Source: Reyranella soli | GTDB lineage: Bacteria; Pseudomonadota; Alphaproteobacteria; Reyranellales; Reyranellaceae | Direction: 5' to 3' | NCBI RefSeq assembly: GCF_007992495.1 | Contig: NZ_BKAJ01000045.1 | Location: 1-64,000, forward strand | Length of the DNA stretch: 64,000 bases | In this document: positions 4,738 to 53,187 of the stretch, piece by piece | Layout of the letters: each line of letters starts with the position of its first letter | Numbering within the stretch: the stretch's first letter is position 1 | Position numbers and translations under genes: made by a program | Notes under the pieces: model-generated | Database searches by the model: none | Seen by the model: the letters and a program-made list of their open reading frames with translations, nothing else | What the model was told of the DNA's origin: nothing

Positions 4738-5312
4738 CCGCCAGGATCGCGACGCTCATCGCCGCGCTCACCATCCTCGGCATCATGACGGTCCAGGCTG
4801 TAACGCTGCACCTGATGGGCCGCGTCTGGACCTGCAGCTGCGGCACCGTCCGCTTCTGGGTCGGCGACATCTGGTCGCCCGAGCTGTCCCAGCAGATGTT
4901 CGACTGGTACACGCCCTCGCACATCGTCCACGGCATCCTGTTCTACGGCGTGCTGCATCTCCTGCTGCCGCGCACGCCCGTCCTCGCGCGGCTGGCGATC
5001 GCGGCCGGGATCGAGGGCGCCTGGGAGATCGCCGAGAACTCGCCCTGGGTGATCGAGGCCTACCGCAAGCAGGCGCTGGCCGCCGGCTATACCGGCGACA
5101 GCGTCCTCAATTCGCTGCTGGACATGGTGGCCATGATGACGGGCTTTGCGGTGGCCCGGCTGCTGCCCTGGAAGGCGACGGTCGCCCTCGTCCTGGTGCT
5201 CGAGATCGGTGCCGCCCTGGTGGTCCGCGACAACCTGACCCTCAATATCCTGAATTTCATCCATCGCTTCCCGGCCATCGAGGCCTGGCAGAAGGGCGCC
5301 CAGCAGGGATAG
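4734..5312 (+). CDS. DUF2585 (UPF0314) membrane protein
   Basis: 192 residues with about five hydrophobic segments. Recognisable family blocks are [21 protein letters not shown] near residue 30 and the [11 protein letters not shown] and [17 protein letters not shown] blocks. DUF2585 proteins occur almost only in Alphaproteobacteria and have no known function. Translationally coupled to the trmH-like gene (ATGA overlap); rlmN follows after 40 bases. Confidence 0.9.
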
Positions 5313-5352
5313 CCATTGCGCCGGCCGGCCCGCCCGCCTATCTCCCGGTCCC

Positions 5353-6492
5353 ATGGCCGCCCACTTGCCCACCGAGCCGCTGCAGATCGTCGAGCCATTC
5401 CGCGGCCGCAACGACACGCGCCGCAACCTGCTCGGCCTGTCGCGCGAGGACCTGAAGGCGGCGCTCACCGAGGCCGGGCTGGAACCGTTCCGCGCCCGCC
5501 AGGTCTGGCAGTGGATCTACTGGCACGGCGTGCGCGACTTCGGCCTGATGACCAACATCGCCAAGAAGACGCGCGATCGCCTCAGCGAGCTCTTCGTCGT
5601 CGAGCGGCCCGAGATCGTCACCGAGCAGCGTTCGGTCGACGGCACGCGCAAGTGGCTGCTGCGCTTCCCCGACGGCAACGAGGCCGAGACCGTCTACATC
5701 CCCGAGGAGGATCGCGGCTCGGTGTGCGTGTCGAGCCAGGTCGGCTGCACGCTGACCTGCAGCTTCTGCCACACCGGCACGCAGCCCCTGGTGCGCAACC
5801 TCGCGCCAGCGGAGATCGTCGGCCAGTTCATGGTGGCGCGCGACAGTTATGGCGAATGGCCGACGCCGACCGAGACCACGCGCATGCTCAGCAACATCGT
5901 CATGATGGGCATGGGCGAGCCGCTCTACAATTTCGACAACGTGGCGACGGCGCTCAAGATCGTCATGGACGAACAGGGCATCGCCCTCTCGCGCCGGCGC
6001 ATCACGCTCTCGACCTCGGGTGTCGTGCCGATGATCCCCAAGGTCGGCGACGTGCTCGACGTCAATCTCGCGGTGTCGCTGCATGCGGTGAACGACGCGG
6101 TGCGCGACACGCTGGTGCCGATCAACCGCAAATGGCCGATCGAGGAGCTCCTGGCCGCGTGCGCCGCCTACCCCGGCGCCAGGAACAGCCGGCGCATCAC
6201 CTTCGAGTACGCCATGCTGAAGGGCGTCAACGACAGCGACGCCGATGCGCGCGAGCTGGTGCGCCTCCTGAAGCCGATACACGCCAAGGTGAACCTGATC
6301 CCGTTCAACCCCTGGCCGGGCGCGCCCTACGAGTGCAGCTCCAACAACCGCATGCACCGCTTCGCCGAGATCGTGAACGATGGCGGCCTGAGCGCGCCGA
6401 TCCGCACGCCGCGCGGCCGGGATATCTTCGCCGCCTGCGGCCAGCTCAAGAGTGCGAGTCAGCGCGGGCGGCGTGAGAAGGTGGCGCTGTAA
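5353..6492 (+). CDS. rlmN: 23S rRNA A2503 / tRNA A37 C2-methyltransferase RlmN
   Basis: 379 residues, the usual length for RlmN, a radical SAM enzyme that methylates C2 of A2503 in 23S rRNA. The Fe-S motif is CTLTCSFC in [16 protein letters not shown]. The second catalytic cysteine is in the C-terminal DIFAACGQL block. [12 protein letters not shown] and the [10 protein letters not shown] segment are further family marks. A hairpin-forming repeat follows the stop and probably ends transcription. Confidence 0.97.
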
Positions 6493-6501
6493 CGCGCACC
6501 G

Positions 6502-6572
6502 CTGTCACCCCGAGCGCAGCGAGGGGCCTTTAGGGCTACAGGAAAGGTCCCTCGCTACGCTCGGGATGACAG
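6502..6572. repeat. REP-like inverted repeat, copy 1, between convergent genes
   Basis: A 71-base near-perfect inverted repeat with outer ends CTGTCA/TGACAG and arms containing GAGCGCAGCGAGGG and CCCTCGCTACGCTCGGG around a short GC-poor centre. It separates rlmN from a convergent methyltransferase, so it can act as a bidirectional terminator. The same 71-base layout recurs at 9012-9082. Confidence 0.85.
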
Positions 6573-6580
6573 TATTGGTG

Positions 6581-7606
6581 TTACTTCTTGAGTGCCACGA
6601 CTGTCGACAGGAACGCGCGTTCCTTCGCGACGACTTTCAGGCCCGCCGCTTCGCTCCACGTTTGGAGCCTGCCCTCCGCATACTCGGTGTAATACGGCTC
6701 GTGGAAATAATGCGGGAAGAGGTCGAGCAGGCCGTCCCATCCTGGGTGATCGCCCTTTTGGATCGAATCGACGATCACCACCAGGCCATCGGGCTTCAAC
6801 ACGCGCCTCATCTCGACAAGCGCCTGCGTCCGCACCGTCGCGGGCAGCTCGTGCATCAGGAACGACGACACCACGAGGTCGAGGCTTGCATCGTCGAACG
6901 GCAGCTTCTCGGCTGCGCCCTCGAGTAGTTTCACGCGCGCCGTCCTGCCGATCAGGCGGCGCGCCTCGGCGAGATAAGGCGCGCTGAGGTCGAGGCCTGT
7001 GAACTTCATGCCGGGCCAGGCGTCGTGCAGGAAGGCGAGCAGGCGGCCGGTGCCGCAGCCGACATCGAGTCCTGCCAGCGTGCGCTGGTTGCGGCCGGCC
7101 ATCCATTCGGCGATCGGTTTCAGCGCGCGGCGGCGCATGACGTCGGCGGCGCCGGTGAACAGCACCTCGACCTGGGTGTCGTAGATCGCGGCCGAATGGT
7201 CGCTTAGCCAGCCATCGCTCTGGAAGTGGAAGTTCTGGCGATAGTAGTCGGGCAGCCCGTCGCCCTGCTCGCCGGGCGGCAGCTCGTCGCTATGGCCATG
7301 GCGGCGCGCATCGACGTGCGGCAGGTCGCGGAAGTAGAGGACGCTGCGGCGCAGGAACTCGCCGGGGTCGAAGGAAAGTGGGCGTGGCGTCGGAAACAGC
7401 CCGGCCTTGATGTCCTGCCATTCGCGCTCGAAGACGGCGCGCATGTCCTTGGTCAGCTCGTCGCGCGAGGGCGTGGGGCCGACCGGGAAATCAGGCTTGG
7501 GCATCGGCTTCAGGAGCCGGCGGCCCGCGGCATAGTGGCCGGCATACCAGGCCACGCGCGCGGTCTGGCGCGCGGCATAGGTGAGACGATCTAGGGCAGA
7601 GGCCAT
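6581..7606 (-). CDS. Class I SAM-dependent methyltransferase
   Basis: 341 residues. The methyltransferase domain is in the C-terminal half: [17 protein letters not shown] (motif I), [15 protein letters not shown], and [14 protein letters not shown] (motif IV). The N-terminal about 150 residues are helical, without a motif I know. ATG 7606 was chosen over the in-frame start at 7669 because the extra residues look non-native (arginine-rich) and [17 protein letters not shown] reads as a normal amphipathic start. It is divergent from argG. Substrate unknown. Confidence 0.8.
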
Positions 7607-7716
7607 GGTCCGAGTATCTTCCAGGCCATTATAGCGCCTTTGCGGCAAACTTGCCCGCGCGGGCTTCATGGCTATATTCGCGCGCCTTCACCGTTCCGAC
7701 ACGAAAGCCGGCCGCC

Positions 7717-8973
<1,257 letters not shown>

Positions 8974-9011
8974 GGCCGAGATCCTTACAGGATCCGTGGA
9001 TGACGAACCCA

Positions 9012-9082
9012 CTGTCATCCCGAGCGAAGCGAGGGACCTTTAGGGCACCCGGAAAGGTCCCTCGCTTCGCTCGGGATGACAG
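9012..9082. repeat. REP-like inverted repeat, copy 2
   Basis: A 71-base inverted repeat with arms CTGTCATCCCGAGCGAAGCG and its complement. It has the same length and centre (ACCTTTAGGG) as copy 1. It follows argG and precedes the Lgt-like gene, so it probably ends argG transcription. Confidence 0.88.
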
Positions 9083-9109
9083 CGAGGTTGTGGCGCCGTT
9101 CGTGCGTCC

Positions 9110-9835
9110 ATGAGTTATTTCGGTCTGCCGTACATCCACGCCGTCTTCGACGTGCTGGCGTGGGTCGCATCGATGACGGTCTTCGTCCTGACCACGCGTC
9201 ATCTCATTCCCGCTGAGGCGCTGCCTGCCAATCGCGTCACCCATCCCGGCCTCTACGCCGTCACGGCCGGCGCGGGCGCCCTCTGTGGCGCGATGTTCTT
9301 CGGCACGGCCAACGCGCTGCTCTCCGGCCAGCATGCGCTGGGCTTCTCCATGGTCGGCGGCATTGCCGGCGCCATCGCCGCCGTCGAGGCTTTCAAGCGC
9401 TTCACCGGTGTCCAGGGCTCGACCGGCATCGTCTTCGCCGCCCCTTTCGCCGCCACCGTCGCCGTCGGCCGCTGGGGCTGCTTCTTCTCCGGCCTGGCCG
9501 ATTTCACCTACGGCACGCCGACCGGCGTCCCCTGGGCCGTCGATTTCGGCGACGGCATCGGCCGCCACCCCGTGCAGCTCTACGAATCGTTTGCCATGGC
9601 GGCGATGTTCGTCGTGTTGATCCAGCGCTTCGTCGCCCGCGACCGGTTCTGGCTGAAAAACGGCTTCTATCTCACGGTGGGCTGGTACGGCCTGCAGCGC
9701 TTCGTCTGGGAGTTCTTCAAACCCTACGCAACGCTTCTGGGGCCCTTCAACCTCTTCCATTTTGTCTGTCTGGGCCTGGTCCTGTACGCTGCGATGATGA
9801 TCCGCAGCGGGGGCCGAGCATGTACGACGGCGTAG
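9110..9835 (+). CDS. Non-canonical prolipoprotein diacylglyceryl transferase (Lgt)-family membrane protein
   Basis: A 241-residue polytopic membrane protein. It shares with Lgt the block GRWGCFFSGL (residues 120-129) and HPVQLYES (153-160). In bona fide Lgt the signature is G-R-x-G-N-F with a Glu a few residues later; here the Asn is Cys124 and the Glu position is Leu129. The HGG block that carries the essential His reads VGG (82-84). Arg121 is kept. It is therefore a diverged member that may handle a phospholipid or diacylglyceryl group without doing standard lipoprotein lipidation. Its end overlaps the radical SAM gene by 16 bases, so the two are expressed together. Confidence 0.75.
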   Translation: MSYFGLPYIHAVFDVLAWVASMTVFVLTTRHLIPAEALPANRVTHPGLYAVTAGAGALCGAMFFGTANALLSGQHALGFSMVGGIAGAIAAVEAFKRFTGVQGSTGIVFAAPFAATVAVGRWGCFFSGLADFTYGTPTGVPWAVDFGDGIGRHPVQLYESFAMAAMFVVLIQRFVARDRFWLKNGFYLTVGWYGLQRFVWEFFKPYATLLGPFNLFHFVCLGLVLYAAMMIRSGGRACTTA

Positions 9836-11247
9836 CGCGCAAGTCGGCGCCTTATCTCTTCCTCGGCCAGACGACGTCCCTCTGCGAGACCTGCCTCGGC
9901 CTGGTGCCGGCCAAGATCGTCGAGGAGGACGGCGCGGTCTACTACTCCAAGCGCTGCCCCGAGCACGGTGTCATGAAGACCCTGGTGTCGGACGACCCGG
10001 TCTACTGGCGCCGCACCCTCGAGTACCTGAAGCCCGGCGACCGCCCGCTGGCGCCGTTCACCAAGACCGAGCGCGGCTGCCCGTGGGATTGCGGGCTCTG
10101 TCCCGACCACGAGCAGCATTCCTGTCTCGCCATCGTCGAGATCAACGAGGCCTGCAACCTCGCCTGCCCGGTGTGCTTCGCCGATTCCTCGCCGAAGAAG
10201 GACAGTCATCGCCCGCTCGCCGAAGTCGAGTTCATGCTCGACGCCCTGGTGAAGAGCGAAGGCGAGCCCGACCTGGTGCAGATCTCGGGCGGCGAGCCCA
10301 CCATCCATCCGCAGATCCTGGAGATCCTCGCCGCCGCGCGCCGCCGCCCCATCAAGCACGTGATGCTGAACACCAACGGCATCCGCATCGCCGAGGACCC
10401 GGCCTTCTGCGATGCGCTCGCCGAGCTGCGCCCGGGCTTCGAGGTCTACCTGCAGTTCGATTCCCTGAACGATGAGGCGCTCAAGAACATCCGCGGCGCT
10501 GCGCTCTCGCGCATCCGCCGCCAGGCGCTGGCCAATCTCGAGGCGCGCAACATCTCCACGACCCTGGTCTGCACGGTGAAGCGCGGCGTCAACGACGACG
10601 AGATCGGCCCGATCGTGCGCCATGCCCTGACGTACAAGTGCGTGCGCGGCATCAACTTCCAGCCGGTGCAGGATGCCGGCCGCAACGAGGGCTTCGATCC
10701 CAGGAAGAACCGCATCGTGCTGTCGGAGATCCGTCGCCGCATCGTCGAGGACTCGGGCGTGTTCGCCGACGGCGACATGATCCCGCTGCCCTGCAATCCC
10801 GCCTCGATCTCGATCGGCTACGGCGTGCGCGACGGCGAGAAGGTGATCCCGCTGACCTCGCTGGTGCCGCGCGAGGCGCTGCTGCCCGCGGTGCCCAACG
10901 CCATCTCCTTCGAGAAGTATCCCGAATTGCGCCAGCGCTTCGTCGACCTGCTGTCGCTGTCGACCGCCGACACCAATACGGCCGATCGCCTGGGCTCGCT
11001 GCTCTGCTGCCTGCCCGACGTGCCGATGCCCGAGGGCTCGGGCTACGAGAACGTCTTCCGCATCACCATCGTGGAGTTCCTGGACCGCTTCAATTTCTGT
11101 CTGGGCAACGTCAAGCGCTCCTGCGTCCATTTCGTGACCCCGGACGGCGCCATCATCCCGTTCGATACCTACAACACCTTCTATCGTCCCGGCGCGGCCG
11201 GTAACGCACGGTTGGCGGAGGCCCGCTTGACTGAGGCACGTCGATGA
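9820..11247 (+). CDS. Radical SAM protein resembling tetraether synthase (Tes, COG1964)
   Basis: 475 residues. The radical SAM Cx3Cx2C motif is C112-x3-C116-x2-C119 (EINEACNLACPVCFA). Before it lie C22/C25 (CETC) with C46 (KRCPEHG), as in the rubredoxin-like N-terminal site of Tes, and C87/C91/C94 with C102 (GCPWDCGLCPDHEQHSC), the extra Fe-S motif typical of this family. The SAM-binding QISGGEPTIHP follows. The C-terminal third has more cysteines (LLCCLPD, NFCLGNVKRSC). Archaeal Tes joins lipid tails at carbon-carbon bonds, so a lipid substrate is a fair guess but unproven. The stop overlaps the next start (ATGA). Confidence 0.8.
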   Translation: MYDGVARKSAPYLFLGQTTSLCETCLGLVPAKIVEEDGAVYYSKRCPEHGVMKTLVSDDPVYWRRTLEYLKPGDRPLAPFTKTERGCPWDCGLCPDHEQHSCLAIVEINEACNLACPVCFADSSPKKDSHRPLAEVEFMLDALVKSEGEPDLVQISGGEPTIHPQILEILAAARRRPIKHVMLNTNGIRIAEDPAFCDALAELRPGFEVYLQFDSLNDEALKNIRGAALSRIRRQALANLEARNISTTLVCTVKRGVNDDEIGPIVRHALTYKCVRGINFQPVQDAGRNEGFDPRKNRIVLSEIRRRIVEDSGVFADGDMIPLPCNPASISIGYGVRDGEKVIPLTSLVPREALLPAVPNAISFEKYPELRQRFVDLLSLSTADTNTADRLGSLLCCLPDVPMPEGSGYENVFRITIVEFLDRFNFCLGNVKRSCVHFVTPDGAIIPFDTYNTFYRPGAAGNARLAEARLTEARR

Positions 11248-11501
11248 GCGACCCGACGCCCGTCCCACCGCCGCCGCCACCGCCGGTCACTCCAGCCCCG
11301 CCAGCCAAAGGCCGCGGGCTCGGCTGGTTCTTCGCCATCTCAGGCTCGATCGTCCTGATCCTGACCTTGGGCTGCATCCTTGCTGTCACCGAGGGCAATC
11401 CCGCCGGCGAAATGGGCGGTGTCGCCATCCTCTGCGGCTCGCCGACGCTGATCCTGGGCGGCGTCTTTCTTTGGCTGGGCTCCCGCCGCCTAAAGCGCTA
11501 A
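11244..11501 (+). CDS. Small proline-rich membrane protein
   Basis: 85 residues. A proline-only stretch (about residues 4-20, PVPPPPPPPVTPAPPAK) precedes two hydrophobic segments (WFFAISGSIVLILTLGCILAV and GGVAILCGSPTLILGGVFLWLG) and a basic end. It overlaps the radical SAM stop by 4 bases (ATGA), so it is probably made with it. No family recognised. A docking or scaffold role is conceivable but has no direct support. Confidence 0.6.
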   Translation: MSDPTPVPPPPPPPVTPAPPAKGRGLGWFFAISGSIVLILTLGCILAVTEGNPAGEMGGVAILCGSPTLILGGVFLWLGSRRLKR

Positions 11502-11543
11502 GCAAGAGTGACGACAGCGCCAGGGTTGGAACGGAGCAGCCGG

Positions 11544-12197
11544 ATGCCTTTCGACAACAGCGACCGCCCGGGGCGGGGACGCGGCACGGGCGAGAGGGCC
11601 ATCAACTTGCCGCCGGCGGTGATGTGGCTGATCGGCATCAACGTCGCGATCCAGCTGCTGCGCAGCCTGCTGGACGAGCCGACCGACAACACCATCATCC
11701 TGATGTTCGGCCTGATTCCCGCCGCCTACACCGGCGGCAACGGCGACCTGCTGACCCAGGTCGTTTCGCCCATCACCTATCAGTTCATCCATGGCGGGTG
11801 GATGCACCTCGTCATCAACATGGTGACGCTGGCGGCGTTCGGCGCGCCGGTCGAGCGCATGCTGGGCGTGCGCCGCTTCGTCCTCTTCTATCTCTCGGCC
11901 GGCATCATCGCGGGCGCCGTGCAGGTCGTGCTCTATCCCGATTCTGTCGATCCGGTGATCGGCGCCTCGGGCGCCATCTCGGGCGTGTTCGGCGCCGTGC
12001 TGATGCTGATGCGCTACACCGGCAACCTGCCCTCGCTCTATCCCATCGCCGGCATCTGGATCGCCCTCAACGTCTTCTTCGGCCTGTTCGGCGGCATGCC
12101 GGGCGCGGGTGGTGAGCAGGTCGCCTGGGCCGCCCATGTCGGCGGCTTCCTCTACGGCCTTTTAGCCATCCGCTTCTTCGCGCCGCGGCGGGGGTAG
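11544..12197 (+). CDS. Rhomboid-family intramembrane serine protease
   Basis: 217 residues and about six membrane helices. The catalytic serine is in GASGAISGVFG, the catalytic histidine in AAHVGGFLYG near the C-terminus, and the HxxxN motif in FIHGGWMHLVINM. These are the standard rhomboid residues, so it should be active against membrane-anchored substrates. The ATG at 11544 with GGAGC upstream was preferred over a GTG at 11508. Its stop overlaps the phoR-like GTG start by one base. Confidence 0.88.
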   Translation: MPFDNSDRPGRGRGTGERAINLPPAVMWLIGINVAIQLLRSLLDEPTDNTIILMFGLIPAAYTGGNGDLLTQVVSPITYQFIHGGWMHLVINMVTLAAFGAPVERMLGVRRFVLFYLSAGIIAGAVQVVLYPDSVDPVIGASGAISGVFGAVLMLMRYTGNLPSLYPIAGIWIALNVFFGLFGGMPGAGGEQVAWAAHVGGFLYGLLAIRFFAPRRG

Positions 12198-13573
12198 TGG
12201 AACCGGTTCCGCTGCGCCGGTATCTCGCCGCCAACGCGGTGGCCCTGGCGCCATCCTTTGCCGGGCTGCTGATCCTTTACTGGTCGGGCTACCTCGCCGG
12301 CCGGCCGACGCTGTTTGCCATGGCGGGTATTGCCGTGGTCACGGTGTTGCTGGTGCAGCGCTATCTCGGCTCGCTGGCCCGTTTCGCCCGCTTCGTCGGC
12401 GAGCTTTCCGACGAGCGCGAGCCCGTGATGCCGCGGCTCTCCTTTGCGCCCGCCACCGAGGAGTTGGCGACGGCGGCAGCCCAGCTCTCGGCCGGCTGGC
12501 GCCGCCAGCGCGCCTCGATCGACAATCTCGCCGCCTCCGCCCAGGCGATCGTCGACGGCCTGCCCGATCCCCTGATCGCCGTCGATCGCAGCCGCCGCAT
12601 CGTGCGCACCAACCTTGCCGCCCGCGACCTCCTGGGCAGAGCCGGCGCCGAGCGCGACCTGTCGACCATGTTCCGCCAGCCGCAGCTCCTCGCCGCGATC
12701 GACGGCCTGCTCGAGACGGCCGACGGCAACTTCACCAGCGCCGACCAGGCGGTCGTCGACTTCATGCTGCCGGGGCCGCCCGAGCTCGACGTCGTGGCCC
12801 ATGTGCGTCGCCTGCCGCGCGCGGCGGCCGATGGTTCGCTGGCGCTGATCGTGCTGCACGACACGACCGCCCTGCGACGTGCCGAGCGTATGCGCGCCGA
12901 CTTCGTCGCCAATGCCAGCCACGAGCTCAAGACGCCAATCGCCGGCCTGGCAGGCTTCATCGAGACCCTGCGCGGGCCGGCGCGCGACGACACTGCCGCG
13001 CGCGAGCGCTTCCTCGGCATCATGGCCGAGCAGGCCGACCGCATGCGCCGCCTGGTCGACGATCTTCTGATGCTGTCGCGCATCGAGCAGCACGAGCACG
13101 CGCGGCCCGATACGGCGATCGAGATCGACCGCGTGCTGAAGGGCGTACTCGACCTGCTGCAGCTCAAGGCGGGAAGCCGCAAGGTGGCGCTGGAGCTCAG
13201 CGTCGAGCCCGACCTGCCGGCTGCCGTCGGCGACTACGACGAGCTCACCATCGTGTTCCAGAACCTGGTCGACAATGCGCTGAAGTACGCCAAGCCCAAC
13301 ACGACGGTGCGCGTGTCTGCGCGACCGATGGGCCGCGACCGCATCGCCGTCGCTGTTGCGGACGAAGGCGACGGCATTCCCGCTAACCACTTGCCGCGAC
13401 TGACCGAGCGCTTCTACCGCGTCGATGCCGCGCGCTCGCGCCAGCTCGGCGGCACCGGCCTTGGCCTCGCCATCGTCAAGCACATCGTCAACCGCCATCG
13501 CGGCCGGCTCGACATCCAGAGCACGCCCGGCAAGGGCTCGACCTTCACCGTGATGTTGCCGGCGGCCGACTAA
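12197..13573 (+). CDS. phoR: PhoR-like sensor histidine kinase
   Basis: 458 residues. Two N-terminal membrane segments, then a PAS-like region (IVDGLPDPLIAVDRSRRIVRTN), the HisKA box with His242 in ASHELKTPI, and an ATPase domain with N-box NLVDNALKYA and G-boxes DEGDGIP and GGTGLGLAIVKH. This short two-helix plus PAS layout is that of PhoR, and FIETLRGPA after the H-box is typical. It starts with GTG overlapping the rhomboid stop. It is far from pst-phoU-phoB (47.6-53 kb), which has no phoR of its own. The identity rests on architecture and motif similarity. Confidence 0.75.
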   Translation: MEPVPLRRYLAANAVALAPSFAGLLILYWSGYLAGRPTLFAMAGIAVVTVLLVQRYLGSLARFARFVGELSDEREPVMPRLSFAPATEELATAAAQLSAGWRRQRASIDNLAASAQAIVDGLPDPLIAVDRSRRIVRTNLAARDLLGRAGAERDLSTMFRQPQLLAAIDGLLETADGNFTSADQAVVDFMLPGPPELDVVAHVRRLPRAAADGSLALIVLHDTTALRRAERMRADFVANASHELKTPIAGLAGFIETLRGPARDDTAARERFLGIMAEQADRMRRLVDDLLMLSRIEQHEHARPDTAIEIDRVLKGVLDLLQLKAGSRKVALELSVEPDLPAAVGDYDELTIVFQNLVDNALKYAKPNTTVRVSARPMGRDRIAVAVADEGDGIPANHLPRLTERFYRVDAARSRQLGGTGLGLAIVKHIVNRHRGRLDIQSTPGKGSTFTVMLPAAD

Positions 13574-13576
13574 CTT

Positions 13577-13619
13577 CCTCCCCATCGTCCTTCGATGGGG
13601 AGGTGTCCGCGAAGCGGAC
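13577..13619. repeat. Double-hairpin REP-like element or terminator after phoR
   Basis: CCTCCCCATCG (13577-13587) pairs perfectly with CGATGGGGAGG (13593-13603) across a TCCTT loop. GTCCGC (13605-13610) pairs with GCGGAC (13614-13619) across GAA. It sits between convergent genes, so it may stop transcription from both sides, although no T-run follows. Confidence 0.7.
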
Positions 13620-13703
13620 GGAGGGGTCATGAGCATCGCGGCTGGGCGCCTATGACGCCTCCGCCTGCCTGCGCGAAGCCGAAGCGGCTTCGCTTTCGGC
13701 TTG

Positions 13704-15458
13704 TCATTCCCCGATGGCTCGACGGATCGCTGCCCGCAGGAGGTCGGGAGCCAGCGGCTTGTGCAGCACGCCGTGTCCGGTCGCTGACAGTTCACGCAGC
13801 CGGTCCGGCGACGTGTCGCCGGTGATGATGAGAGCCGGAACGCAATAGCCCAAGTGAGCGTTCAACCACTCGATGGCATTCACACCCGTCACACCGCCGG
13901 CCAATCGATAGTCGGCAACGATCAAATGCACCGAAGGCGCACCGGCTTGGTCGTAGCAACGGGAGAGTTCTTCCGCGCTCTGCGCGACGTATGTCCGGTA
14001 GCCCCAGACCGACAGCAGGGCGGCAATGCTTTCGAGCACCAGCGGGTCGTCATCCACCACCATGATGCCGAGGCCGGTGGCCTCCTCCGGCTCTGCCGCG
14101 GCAGGGAAGGCGGCCGCCGGCGGCGCGAGCGGCACCCGCACGGCGAAAGTCGAGCCCTTGCCGGGAGCGGAGCGCAAGGTCACCGCGTGACCCAGCAAGT
14201 CGGCCAGTCGTCGGACGATGGCGAGCCCGAGCCCCATGCCCTGCTGGCGGTCGCGCTGCGGGTTGTGCAGCTGGGTGAATTCCTCGAACACCGCTTCGTG
14301 CTGATCGGCCGGGATGCCCGGCCCGGTATCGACGACCTGGATCTCGATCGAATCGCCGCGGCGGCGGCAACCGATGAGCACGCGGCCACCGGGCGCGTAA
14401 CGCAGGGCATTGGACAGGAAATTGTCGAGGATGCGCTTCAGCAGCGCGGGATCGCTGTCGACCCAGGCATGGGACGTCACGACGCGAAGCGAGACGCCGA
14501 GATCGCGCGCCTGGACTCCGAACTCCTCGTCGAGGCCGGAGAGCAATCGGCGAAGCGCGATCGGCCGCCTTTCCACCGGCACGAGCCCGGCATCGAGCCG
14601 CGACACGTCGATCAGGCCGTGCAGCAGCCCGCCGAGCGAGCCGATGACCGCCTGCAGCCGGCCGGCAAGGCTTCGCGCTTCGGCGCCGCCGACGTCCCCC
14701 TTGTTTGCCAAGGCGGCAAGTGTCGCCGTGAAGAGGCCGAGCGCATGGATCGGCTGACGCAGGTCGTGGCTGGCGGCGGCAAGGAAGCGGGTTTTCGCCT
14801 GGTTGGCGGCGGTGGCGCGGTCGCGTTCCTGCTCCAGCCTCTCGACCAGGGTCATATTCTCGAACCGCAGCGCGACGGTCTCCTTGAGCGATCGATAGTT
14901 GATCCGGCAGTAAAAGAGGCTGACCACGATGAGGCAGGCCTGGAGGACCAGATAGAGAGAGAAGATCGGATCGGCCTGCATCACGCAGCGGATTGCGAAG
15001 GGCGCATGCATGGCGAGCAGCACGCGCGCATGAGCCGGAGGATGGGCTGCCACCGACGACACGCCGCCGCCCGCCATGCCCGTGAGCACGATGCAGACGA
15101 AGGCGATGAGATGGGGCTCAGCGGGAACGAAGCCGATCCAGCCGAGCGCGCCCCACGACAGGCTCCACAGGATCGACAGCAGGGTGAAGCGCCGTGCCCA
15201 GATCGCGATGCCGGGATCGCCGGCGCTGCGGAGAAAATAGCGGCGCACCAGCAGCCAGCGCGCGCCCGTCATCGCCTGGATCGTGGCCGCCCAGATCAGC
15301 AGATTCGGAACGGGTACGGCGTCGCGCAGCACATAGACCACAGGCCACGGCACGACGAGGCTGGCGATCATCGAACCGTAGGATTGGCGATAGAGAAAGT
15401 CGATCAGGGCGGCCTGCAAGCGCGCTTCTTTGCCGGCGTCAGTCTGCGATAGGGTCAT
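13704..15458 (-). CDS. Hybrid sensor histidine kinase with C-terminal receiver
   Basis: 584 residues. About six N-terminal membrane segments (to residue 185) lead into a short coiled coil, a HisKA box with His231 in ASHDLRQPIHALGLF, an ATPase domain (N-box NFLSNALRYAP; G-boxes DTGPGIPADQ and GMGLGLAIV), and a receiver domain from about residue 455 (VVDDDPLV, phosphoacceptor Asp in LIVADYRL, lysine in LHKPL). The HDLRQP class commonly works with separate receivers. The LuxR-type regulator is divergent, only 26 bases away, and is the likely partner. Signal unknown. Confidence 0.88.
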   Translation of the reverse strand: MTLSQTDAGKEARLQAALIDFLYRQSYGSMIASLVVPWPVVYVLRDAVPVPNLLIWAATIQAMTGARWLLVRRYFLRSAGDPGIAIWARRFTLLSILWSLSWGALGWIGFVPAEPHLIAFVCIVLTGMAGGGVSSVAAHPPAHARVLLAMHAPFAIRCVMQADPIFSLYLVLQACLIVVSLFYCRINYRSLKETVALRFENMTLVERLEQERDRATAANQAKTRFLAAASHDLRQPIHALGLFTATLAALANKGDVGGAEARSLAGRLQAVIGSLGGLLHGLIDVSRLDAGLVPVERRPIALRRLLSGLDEEFGVQARDLGVSLRVVTSHAWVDSDPALLKRILDNFLSNALRYAPGGRVLIGCRRRGDSIEIQVVDTGPGIPADQHEAVFEEFTQLHNPQRDRQQGMGLGLAIVRRLADLLGHAVTLRSAPGKGSTFAVRVPLAPPAAAFPAAAEPEEATGLGIMVVDDDPLVLESIAALLSVWGYRTYVAQSAEELSRCYDQAGAPSVHLIVADYRLAGGVTGVNAIEWLNAHLGYCVPALIITGDTSPDRLRELSATGHGVLHKPLAPDLLRAAIRRAIGE

Positions 15459-52956: not shown

Positions 52957-53093
52957 TCGACAGCACTGCTGGCAGGCGGCGACTCGCCGCGAGCAGTAGT
53001 ATTGCCGCCGAGGCCGCCCCTAGATATGGCGTGCCCTGGAGCGCCCAAAGTCGTGAATGCGAAACTGTGGTGTCTCTTCCAGACCCCCCTGTC

Positions 53094-53161
53094 ATCCTGA
53101 GCGAAGCGAAGGATCTCATCGCCGCTTCGCAAGGCATGAGATCCTTCGCTTCGCTCAGGAT
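53094..53161. repeat. REP-like inverted repeat, variant copy 3
   Basis: Two perfect 26-bp arms beginning ATCCTGAGCGAAGCGAAGGA around a 16-base loop. The core GAGCGAAGCGA is shared with the repeats at 6502 and 9012, but the outer sequence differs (AGGATCTCAT), so it is a related subtype. Confidence 0.85.
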
Positions 53162-53187
53162 GTCCGTGGGCCTTCGGCCCACGGACA
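53161..53187. repeat. 12-bp hairpin abutting the REP element
   Basis: TGTCCGTGGGCC (53161-53172) pairs with GGCCCACGGACA (53176-53187) over a TTC loop. It directly follows the larger repeat and may be part of the same element. Confidence 0.7.

Follow-up and report, generated by a model that had tools for sequence, protein, structure and literature searches.

A Tes-like radical SAM protein encoded with an Lgt paralogue and small cysteine-containing membrane proteins in Reyranella soli and other bacteria

The lipoprotein enzyme Lgt of Escherichia coli works on the outer side of the membrane (PMC4728403). Its Arg143 and Arg239 line the phosphatidylglycerol site, and the enzyme also requires His103, which may serve the acceptor (PMC4728403, PMC13251419). 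Tes, a radical SAM enzyme of archaea, couples the tail ends of lipids (PMC9433317). A total of 456 Tes homologues have been counted in bacteria, Proteobacteria included (PMC8941075, Zeng et al.). These bacterial homologues, whose product is not assigned, are a proposed source of the bacterial membrane-spanning lipids used as climate proxies. Here we describe a locus of Reyranella soli in which an Lgt paralogue, a Tes-like radical SAM protein (rSAM) and a small membrane protein with a conserved cysteine are encoded in succession. The locus lies in a 64,000-nucleotide stretch of contig NZ_BKAJ01000045.1, hereafter the window, from a genome of 9.85 Mb in 409 contigs.

The Lgt paralogue, the rSAM and the small membrane protein or proteins travel together as a three-part module, a conclusion that is well supported. 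Judging from the sequences, the module is present in at least three phyla (Pseudomonadota, Bacteroidota and Actinomycetota). The best explanation for the whole is that the paralogue may lipidate the cysteine of the small protein and that the rSAM may act on the attached lipid, a tentative reading that comes close to an even judgement. The genes of the window are as follows (aa, amino acids).

9110..9835, plus strand: Lgt paralogue, 241 aa, seven predicted helices; Pfam LGT (PF01790)
9820..11247, plus strand: Tes-like rSAM, 475 aa; Pfam Radical_SAM and Zn_ribbon_HMPTM
11244..11501, plus strand: small membrane protein, 85 aa, proline-rich N-terminus and two helices; candidate substrate
11508..12197, plus strand: rhomboid protease gene, 229 aa from a GTG; Pfam Rhomboid; outside the conserved module

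Linkage and spread of the module

An earlier description of this locus, made from the letters of the DNA alone (the sequence-only reading), had given the gene order, the overlaps and the CETC, CPEH, CPWDCGLC and CNLACPVC stretches of the rSAM. All were confirmed by the open reading frames (ORFs), Pfam and the translation. The Lgt-like and rSAM genes share 16 bases (9820-9835), and the rSAM and small protein genes overlap at ATGA. The Pfam scores were 67.9 bits for LGT, which passes the cut-off of 24.9, 81.4 for Radical_SAM, 69.7 for Zn_ribbon_HMPTM and 111.9 for Rhomboid. The 85-aa protein was assigned to no family in the Pfam scan of the locus proteins.

Linkage was examined in a main set consisting of the best 80 of 218 relatives, among which the public loci closest to the window are Reyranella-like; loci and genomes carry L and G numbers, respectively. 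Of the 80 loci, 78 had an Lgt-like gene upstream of that for the rSAM; the remaining two (L030 and L053) are truncated, their contigs beginning within the rSAM gene or shortly before it. When the start codon closest to the end of the Lgt-like gene is used, 73 pairs out of 78 overlapped or were at most 30 bases apart, the largest gap being 508 bases. All 13 loci of a further set, and L108-L115, likewise had an Lgt-like match beside the rSAM. In a sample of Pseudomonadota that was not chosen by similarity, the rSAM occurred in 11 of 349 genomes and the Lgt-like protein in the identical 11, the window's genome included. In the window the two overlap; in nine of the other genomes 14 to 223 bases separate the matches, and in G456 844 bases do. 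At the G456 locus (L118), an ORF at 6835-7653 lies between the two genes, overlaps both and encodes an N-terminal helix that ends in GGTGC; its product may be either an additional cysteine substrate or a lipoprotein of the ordinary kind. The sequence-only reading would have been refuted by a lack of conserved linkage outside this genome, and the linkage proved to be conserved there.

Of 289 alphaproteobacterial genomes, 4 had the rSAM and 3 the Lgt-like protein. In the fourth genome (G214, locus L121), where the rSAM is only 31% identical, two small genes separate the rSAM gene from an Lgt-like gene that is divergent; a comparable trio is present there. Flanking genes mostly change between genera while the trio persists. 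The locus is patchily distributed, occurring in 11 of 25 genomes of the same genus (window's included), so that it has seemingly often been gained or lost.

The alphaproteobacterial setting noted in the sequence-only reading holds for this locus, but the pair is not confined to it, being present in other classes of Pseudomonadota, in Bacteroidota and in Actinomycetota. Persicobacter psychrovividus (Bacteroidota) encodes, in successive overlaps, an Lgt-like protein, an rSAM (49%) and a 59-aa protein that ends in TGICGSLLS. An Lgt-family gene, membrane proteins and an rSAM at 33-34% identity occur in Mycobacterium branderi, an M. avium plasmid and Nonomuraea, the first two trios representing two mycobacterial plasmids. 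The last helix of the actinobacterial partners runs into (G/V/A)-G-(L/V/I/Y)-C-TG-(L/I)-NP, and several of these proteins have a proline-rich start. A tblastn search against plasmids gave ten records with a relative; of the seven examined, four had an Lgt-like gene and three a methyltransferase gene instead. In L134, L135 and L138 (M. vanbaalenii and two haloarchaea), the related rSAM gene overlaps a methyltransferase gene and there is no annotated Lgt nearby, so that the pairing is a different one.

In a tree of 23 proteins, the Lgt-linked rSAMs of Pseudomonadota and Persicobacter formed one clade (100/97). MJ0619, the sole Tes sequence and a partial one, grouped with the methyltransferase-linked rSAMs (93/87) on long branches. 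The actinobacterial and G214 rSAMs fell elsewhere, likewise on long branches and with weak support (80/44). According to this placement, the Lgt link is either old or has arisen more than once.

Features of the three proteins and their surroundings

The rSAM aligned with the solved Tes of M. jannaschii (7tol/7tom) with an E value of 4.4e-67. It contains rubredoxin-type ligands (C22, C25, C46 and H49, spaced C-x2-C-x20-C-x2-H), an N-terminal auxiliary cluster site (C87, C91 and C94 with H97/H100) and the SAM cluster site (C112, C116 and C119). The ligands of all three sites were invariant in 101 of 101 aligned rows and match the Tes motifs of PMC9433317. Some genomes had been fetched twice, such that the 101 rSAM rows represent 97 distinct sequences and the 102 Lgt-like rows represent 98; the rSAM alignment omits L121, which is divergent, and L030 and L031, which are truncated. 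Additional invariant cysteines are C102, C325, C396, C397 and C435, the last four of which may hold a C-terminal auxiliary cluster. An AlphaFold2 model of the rSAM (pLDDT 76, pTM 0.81; residues 356-403 poor) matched 7tol along its length with a TM score of 0.75, normalised by the model, the best unrelated structure reaching 0.36. The rSAM missed the NCBIfam cut-offs for Tes (NF045702, 277.1 of 450 bits) and TrsS (NF045646, 306.8 of 490 bits), and six scanned relatives had TrsS scores of 188.8 (L137) to 338.5. No family with a known non-lipid product claimed the rSAM in the NCBIfam scan. By the NCBIfam cut-off, the rSAM, called Tes-like in the sequence-only reading, is outside the Tes family.

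The genome encodes a canonical Lgt elsewhere (247.8 bits); the cassette copy is the second and weaker LGT protein, at 67.2 bits. The cassette protein did not reach the NCBIfam equivalogs for true Lgt (TIGR00544, 24.4 of 118.9 bits; NF000775, 30.6 of 428 bits). In an alignment of the Lgt-like rows with canonical Lgt, window residues R121 (codon 9470-9472), C124 (9479-9481), Y193, R197 (9698-9700), E201 and K204 corresponded to E. coli R143, N146, Y235, R239, E243 and R246, respectively, and V82 replaced His103. In E. coli, R143, R239, G154, H103, N146 and Y26 are essential. Across the 98 distinct rows, equivalents were kept for Y235 and R239 in 98 each, for R143 in 97 (one Lys) and for G154 in 97; the E243 equivalent was Glu in 90 and Asp in eight, and that of R246 was Lys in 97. 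Counted over all 102 rows, R143, R239 and G154 were kept in 101, 102 and 101, respectively. Retention of R143, Y235, R239 and E243 together with the loss of His103 suggests a retained donor site and an altered acceptor side. N146 was Cys in 98 of 98 distinct rows. The same substitution occurs in Leptospira Lgt and MSMEG_5408 (PMC13251419), so that this Cys alone is no sign of lost activity.

The AlphaFold2 model of the paralogue had a pLDDT of 87. Compared with E. coli Lgt (5azb), it gave a Z score of 12.2, which may be only middling for helical bundles, and a root-mean-square deviation of 4.4 over 217 residues; the next row had a Z score of 5.4 (VIA). Foldseek returned no PDB match for this model at E up to 0.001, with E. 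coli Lgt outside the top 50, and phmmer (E up to 0.01) returned no solved structure for the protein.

The third part of the module is a short two-helix protein in which a cysteine ends the first helix. Its gene adjoins the pair, often through an ATGA overlap with the rSAM stop and in two or three tandem copies. In the window copy, Cys44 (codon 11373-11375) lies at the predicted outer end of helix 1. A hidden Markov model (HMM) of the family, built from 15 seeds hand-picked among rSAM-adjacent ORFs with helices and a cysteine, gave matches (E up to 0.01) in 78 of the 80 loci; in L031 the contig ends earlier, and the copy in L038 was seen by eye. The cysteine was present in 116 of 116 aligned copies, a count that is partly self-favouring because the seeds were chosen for it, and a glycine preceded it by nine or ten residues in 113 of the 116. 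In an alignment of 20 copies (A3), the cysteine and this mid-helix glycine were the sole invariant columns at a mean column identity of 33%, the conservation pattern expected of a modified substrate. The sequence-only reading had proposed the small protein as a partner; its occurrence agrees with this and its conservation suggests a more substrate-like role.

Two further searches addressed the association of the small protein with the rSAM. Searched against 17 whole genomes, A3 matched 18 times (E up to 0.01), in 14 of the genomes; each match lay no more than 330 bases from the rSAM match of its genome, and there were none elsewhere. A rule that is independent of the HMM, framed after the motif had been seen, found a motif protein in 74 of 77 target windows versus 3 of 2716 control windows from the same loci. 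One of the three control matches is a further copy in L085, and the other two are a single ORF of L069 counted twice. The three target misses (L022, L041 and L049) do have HMM matches, that of L041 being weak (E 0.0095). The copy instead precedes the Lgt-like gene in several genomes of another class of Pseudomonadota; a downstream copy is present in L127.

The small proteins do not behave as one sequence family. The HMM, which is mostly alphaproteobacterial and was applied to loci other than the actinobacterial ones, was blank in L119, L120, L122, L124 and L127, and A3 was blank in G401, G321 and G456. Such HMM-negative and actinobacterial copies were recognised by position, helices and cysteine motif. 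The tandem copies 3' of the rSAM gene in L064, L085, L087, L088, L091, L056 and L122 differ clearly from each other.

Topology was predicted from hydropathy and charge bias in the 116 copies. Lysine and arginine made up 15% of residues before helix 1 (208/1369), 3% in the loop (81/2373) and 30% after helix 2 (348/1176). According to the positive-inside rule, this bias predicts that both ends are inside and the cysteine outside, placing it at the outer end of an N-in helix. Read by eye, the final G-x-C of the three-helix actinobacterial proteins and of the 59-aa Persicobacter protein also lies at an outer helix end.

The surroundings of the module are less constant. In the window, argG lies upstream of the cassette and a histidine kinase gene downstream. 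Neighbouring rlmN, rhomboid and histidine kinase genes were observed in Reyranella-like loci, as was argG, which is also upstream in L067. The rhomboid, which the sequence-only reading had counted as a cassette member, was dropped from the module: tblastn (E up to 1e-3) found none in the 64 non-Reyranella-like loci, L032-L095. Its start is ambiguous, an internal ATG being equally possible as the GTG used. TypA/BipA and NMT1-like genes near the Bradyrhizobium and Rhodoplanes copies were likewise set aside, clustering having seen them only in Rhizobiales-type loci. The genome encodes a single close rSAM of the Tes-like type; a search at E 1e-5 gave just one more match, partial and 29% identical. 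No Rfam families were found within 8000-14000 and no tRNA genes in the window. Between argG and the Lgt-like gene, at 9014-9080, is an inverted pair resembling repetitive extragenic palindromic (REP) elements, GTCATCCCGAGCGAAGCGAGGGA, which recurs in the window at 6504-6570 and 53091-53164. Allowing at most two mismatches, the genome contains 197 copies (95 forward, 102 reverse), several in facing pairs, versus 0 for a reversed-pattern control.

A proposed reaction and its rivals

We propose that the module modifies a small inner-membrane protein. The Lgt paralogue would move a diacylglyceryl (or similar) group from phosphatidylglycerol onto the invariant cysteine. This acceptor would end an in-to-out helix, the position of a lipobox cysteine, and the protein would retain its helices, unlike a classical lipoprotein. 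Less surely, the rSAM would then create a radical on a lipid tail and couple that tail, joining either both tails of the attached lipid or the attached tail to a neighbouring lipid. Such chemistry is suggested by analogy with Tes, with which the rSAM shares cluster-ligand sites. The protein would thereby become anchored to a lipid that is macrocyclic or spans the membrane, and tandem copies would provide several substrates for one enzyme pair. In L121, a gene of the isoprenylcysteine carboxyl methyltransferase (ICMT) family (4935-5912; PF04140, 50.5 bits) overlaps the end of the Lgt-like gene. ICMT-family enzymes act on lipidated cysteine, and we count this neighbour in favour of the proposal. 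The fullest form of the proposal is a widespread, undescribed bacterial system in which membrane microproteins bear, on a cysteine outside a lipobox, a lipid with coupled tails (macrocyclic or membrane-spanning), the paralogue attaching the lipid and the Tes relative joining its tails; in that form we consider it doubtful.

Several points weigh against lipidation of the cysteine followed by chemistry on the lipid, a reaction proposed from sequence and models. The main difficulty is one of sidedness: the rSAM is presumably cytosolic and the cysteine is predicted to be outside, which would place the two steps on opposite sides of the membrane. The tail ends coupled by Tes lie in the membrane core, and an outer-leaflet anchor may thus be compatible with a cytosolic rSAM. 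In the paralogue, none of the 98 distinct rows has His103, the position being occupied by E, V, A, L or M, and the Y26 motif is absent, Y26 of E. coli Lgt falling in a gap of the sequence alignment. In the rSAM, Tes Met439 and Tyr459 align with Val418 and Phe438 (phmmer alignment), Phe438 being invariant in 28 sequences. The two Tes residues are strictly conserved in archaea, and the M439A and Y459F variants stay active (PMC9433317). The actinobacterial rSAMs of L137 (4878-6422) and L136 (4875-6407) are without the N-terminal auxiliary cysteines kept in the aligned members from Pseudomonadota. The classical lipobox pattern is [LVI][ASTVI][GAS]C, which the small proteins fail, their motif being mostly (P/S/T/C)-G-(L/A/I/G)-C in the 116 copies and T-L-G-C in the window.

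Gaps in the association tell against the same proposal. The Lgt-like and rSAM genes are not always in contact, as the distances of up to 508 bases and of 844 bases in G456 illustrate, and an additional ORF sits between them in L047 and L118. No Lgt-like match was found in the 3.8 kb upstream of the rSAM in L126, a fragment truncated by a contig end and 45% identical over 157 residues, or in 10 kb at L125, a 26% relative in the same genome. The small-protein HMM had no match in 12 of 99 loci: the contig ends in L031, copies were seen by eye in L038, L119, L120, L122, L124 and L127, and in L109 and L111-L114 the fetched flank was too short on the Lgt side to show the small protein. The A3 search gave no match in G401, G321 and G456, where the copies are known by position and motif only. 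Finally, the actinobacterial partners are of 94-151 aa except that of Nonomuraea, which is of 369 aa as called.

Other explanations account for part of these data. The rSAM could modify the small protein itself, before or during insertion, by a C-S or C-C cross-link at the cysteine or by sulfur insertion, with the paralogue lipidating or escorting the product, in the manner of a ribosomally synthesized and post-translationally modified peptide (RiPP). Tandem precursor-like copies beside the rSAM gene, the invariant Cys and Gly, and the proline-rich N-terminus of the window, Bradyrhizobium and actinobacterial copies, possibly a leader, are all in keeping with this, as is the passage of Tes through a carbon-sulfur bond to a cluster (PMC9433317). 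We nevertheless think it unlikely: the rSAM model is far closer to lipid-binding Tes than to the RiPP maturase SkfB (TM 0.75 versus 0.36), and the RiPP reading alone leaves a dedicated Lgt paralogue unexplained. It is also rather unlikely that the paralogue and rSAM make an unusual free membrane lipid with the small protein as an enzyme-holding scaffold. Both enzymes belong to, or resemble, lipid-handling families, and bacterial Tes homologues have been proposed as makers of membrane-spanning lipids (PMC8941075, PMC11868695), a function that is unproven (PMC11868695). A scaffold would, however, be expected to conserve surfaces, yet only the Gly and Cys are invariant, and tandem duplication would be unusual for it.

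A role of the small-protein cysteine in redox or sulfur supply to the rSAM, with the paralogue as a non-enzymatic membrane anchor, would suit a single invariant thiol beside a multi-cluster enzyme that needs electrons, and CcdA and disulfide oxidoreductase genes adjoin the related rSAM gene of M. vanbaalenii. We regard it as highly improbable, since the cysteine is predicted to be outside, distant from cytosolic clusters, the Lgt donor-site residues are kept, which is unexpected in a mere anchor, and the M. vanbaalenii rSAM gene has no annotated Lgt within 5 kb. Chance, or synteny without functional coupling, might be suspected from the constancy of argG, rlmN and the histidine kinase gene in Reyranella-like loci and from argG upstream in L067. 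Against this, the trio is maintained from genus to genus although most of its flanking genes are not, and three phyla contain comparable trios. We judge this explanation to be refuted, with next to no probability left to it, by the linkage in 78 of 80 loci, the identical 11 of 349 genomes and the location of 18 of 18 small-protein matches beside an rSAM.

Comparison with known systems

The sequence-only reading had named no described system with this gene order, and none was found in the literature searched, which included few subscription journals; nor did that literature connect any Lgt homologue to a radical SAM system. The parts of PMC8941075 and PMC11868695 consulted mention neither Lgt nor a small protein, although the rSAM clade studied here is probably counted among the 456 homologues. 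PMC8939145 names both diacylglyceryl transferase and radical SAM, but for unrelated graspetide loci. The enzymes themselves either belong to known families, as divergent members, or are related to them, and the whole system matches no described kind that we found. If the proposed lipidation and tail chemistry were true, they would constitute a second, non-lipobox bacterial lipoprotein pathway with radical chemistry on the lipid, a new lipoprotein class and a natural role for some orphan bacterial Tes homologues.

Compared with Lgt (PF01790; E. coli 5AZB/5AZC), the paralogue has a similar fold (Z 12.2), equivalents of R143, Y235, R239, E243 and G154 and, by inference for the small protein, a cysteine acceptor at the outer end of an in-to-out helix. 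It differs in being a second copy besides the canonical Lgt, in its linkage to an rSAM, in scoring below the equivalog cut-offs, and in lacking His103 and having Cys for N146. The rSAM resembles Tes, or GDGT-MAS (MJ0619, 7TOL/7TOM), in its whole-length fold (TM 0.75), rubredoxin motif, N-terminal auxiliary and SAM cluster cysteines and conserved C-terminal cysteines. Unlike Tes, it falls below the 450-bit cut-off, does not keep Met439 and Tyr459, falls in a separate clade of the tree and is encoded beside an Lgt and a small protein. TrsS (NF045646), a radical SAM (seleno)protein without an assigned function, is the best-scoring named family for the rSAM (306.8 bits), which is nevertheless below its cut-off of 490, as are the methyltransferase-linked relatives of M. 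vanbaalenii and two haloarchaea, where scanned. Radical-SAM RiPP systems have small genes, often in tandem, beside the rSAM gene; by contrast, the small proteins here are membrane proteins with two or three helices, the rSAM most closely resembles Tes, and an Lgt paralogue is present. The link to this paralogue and to a cysteine-containing microprotein gives the Tes-like clade a defined candidate substrate.

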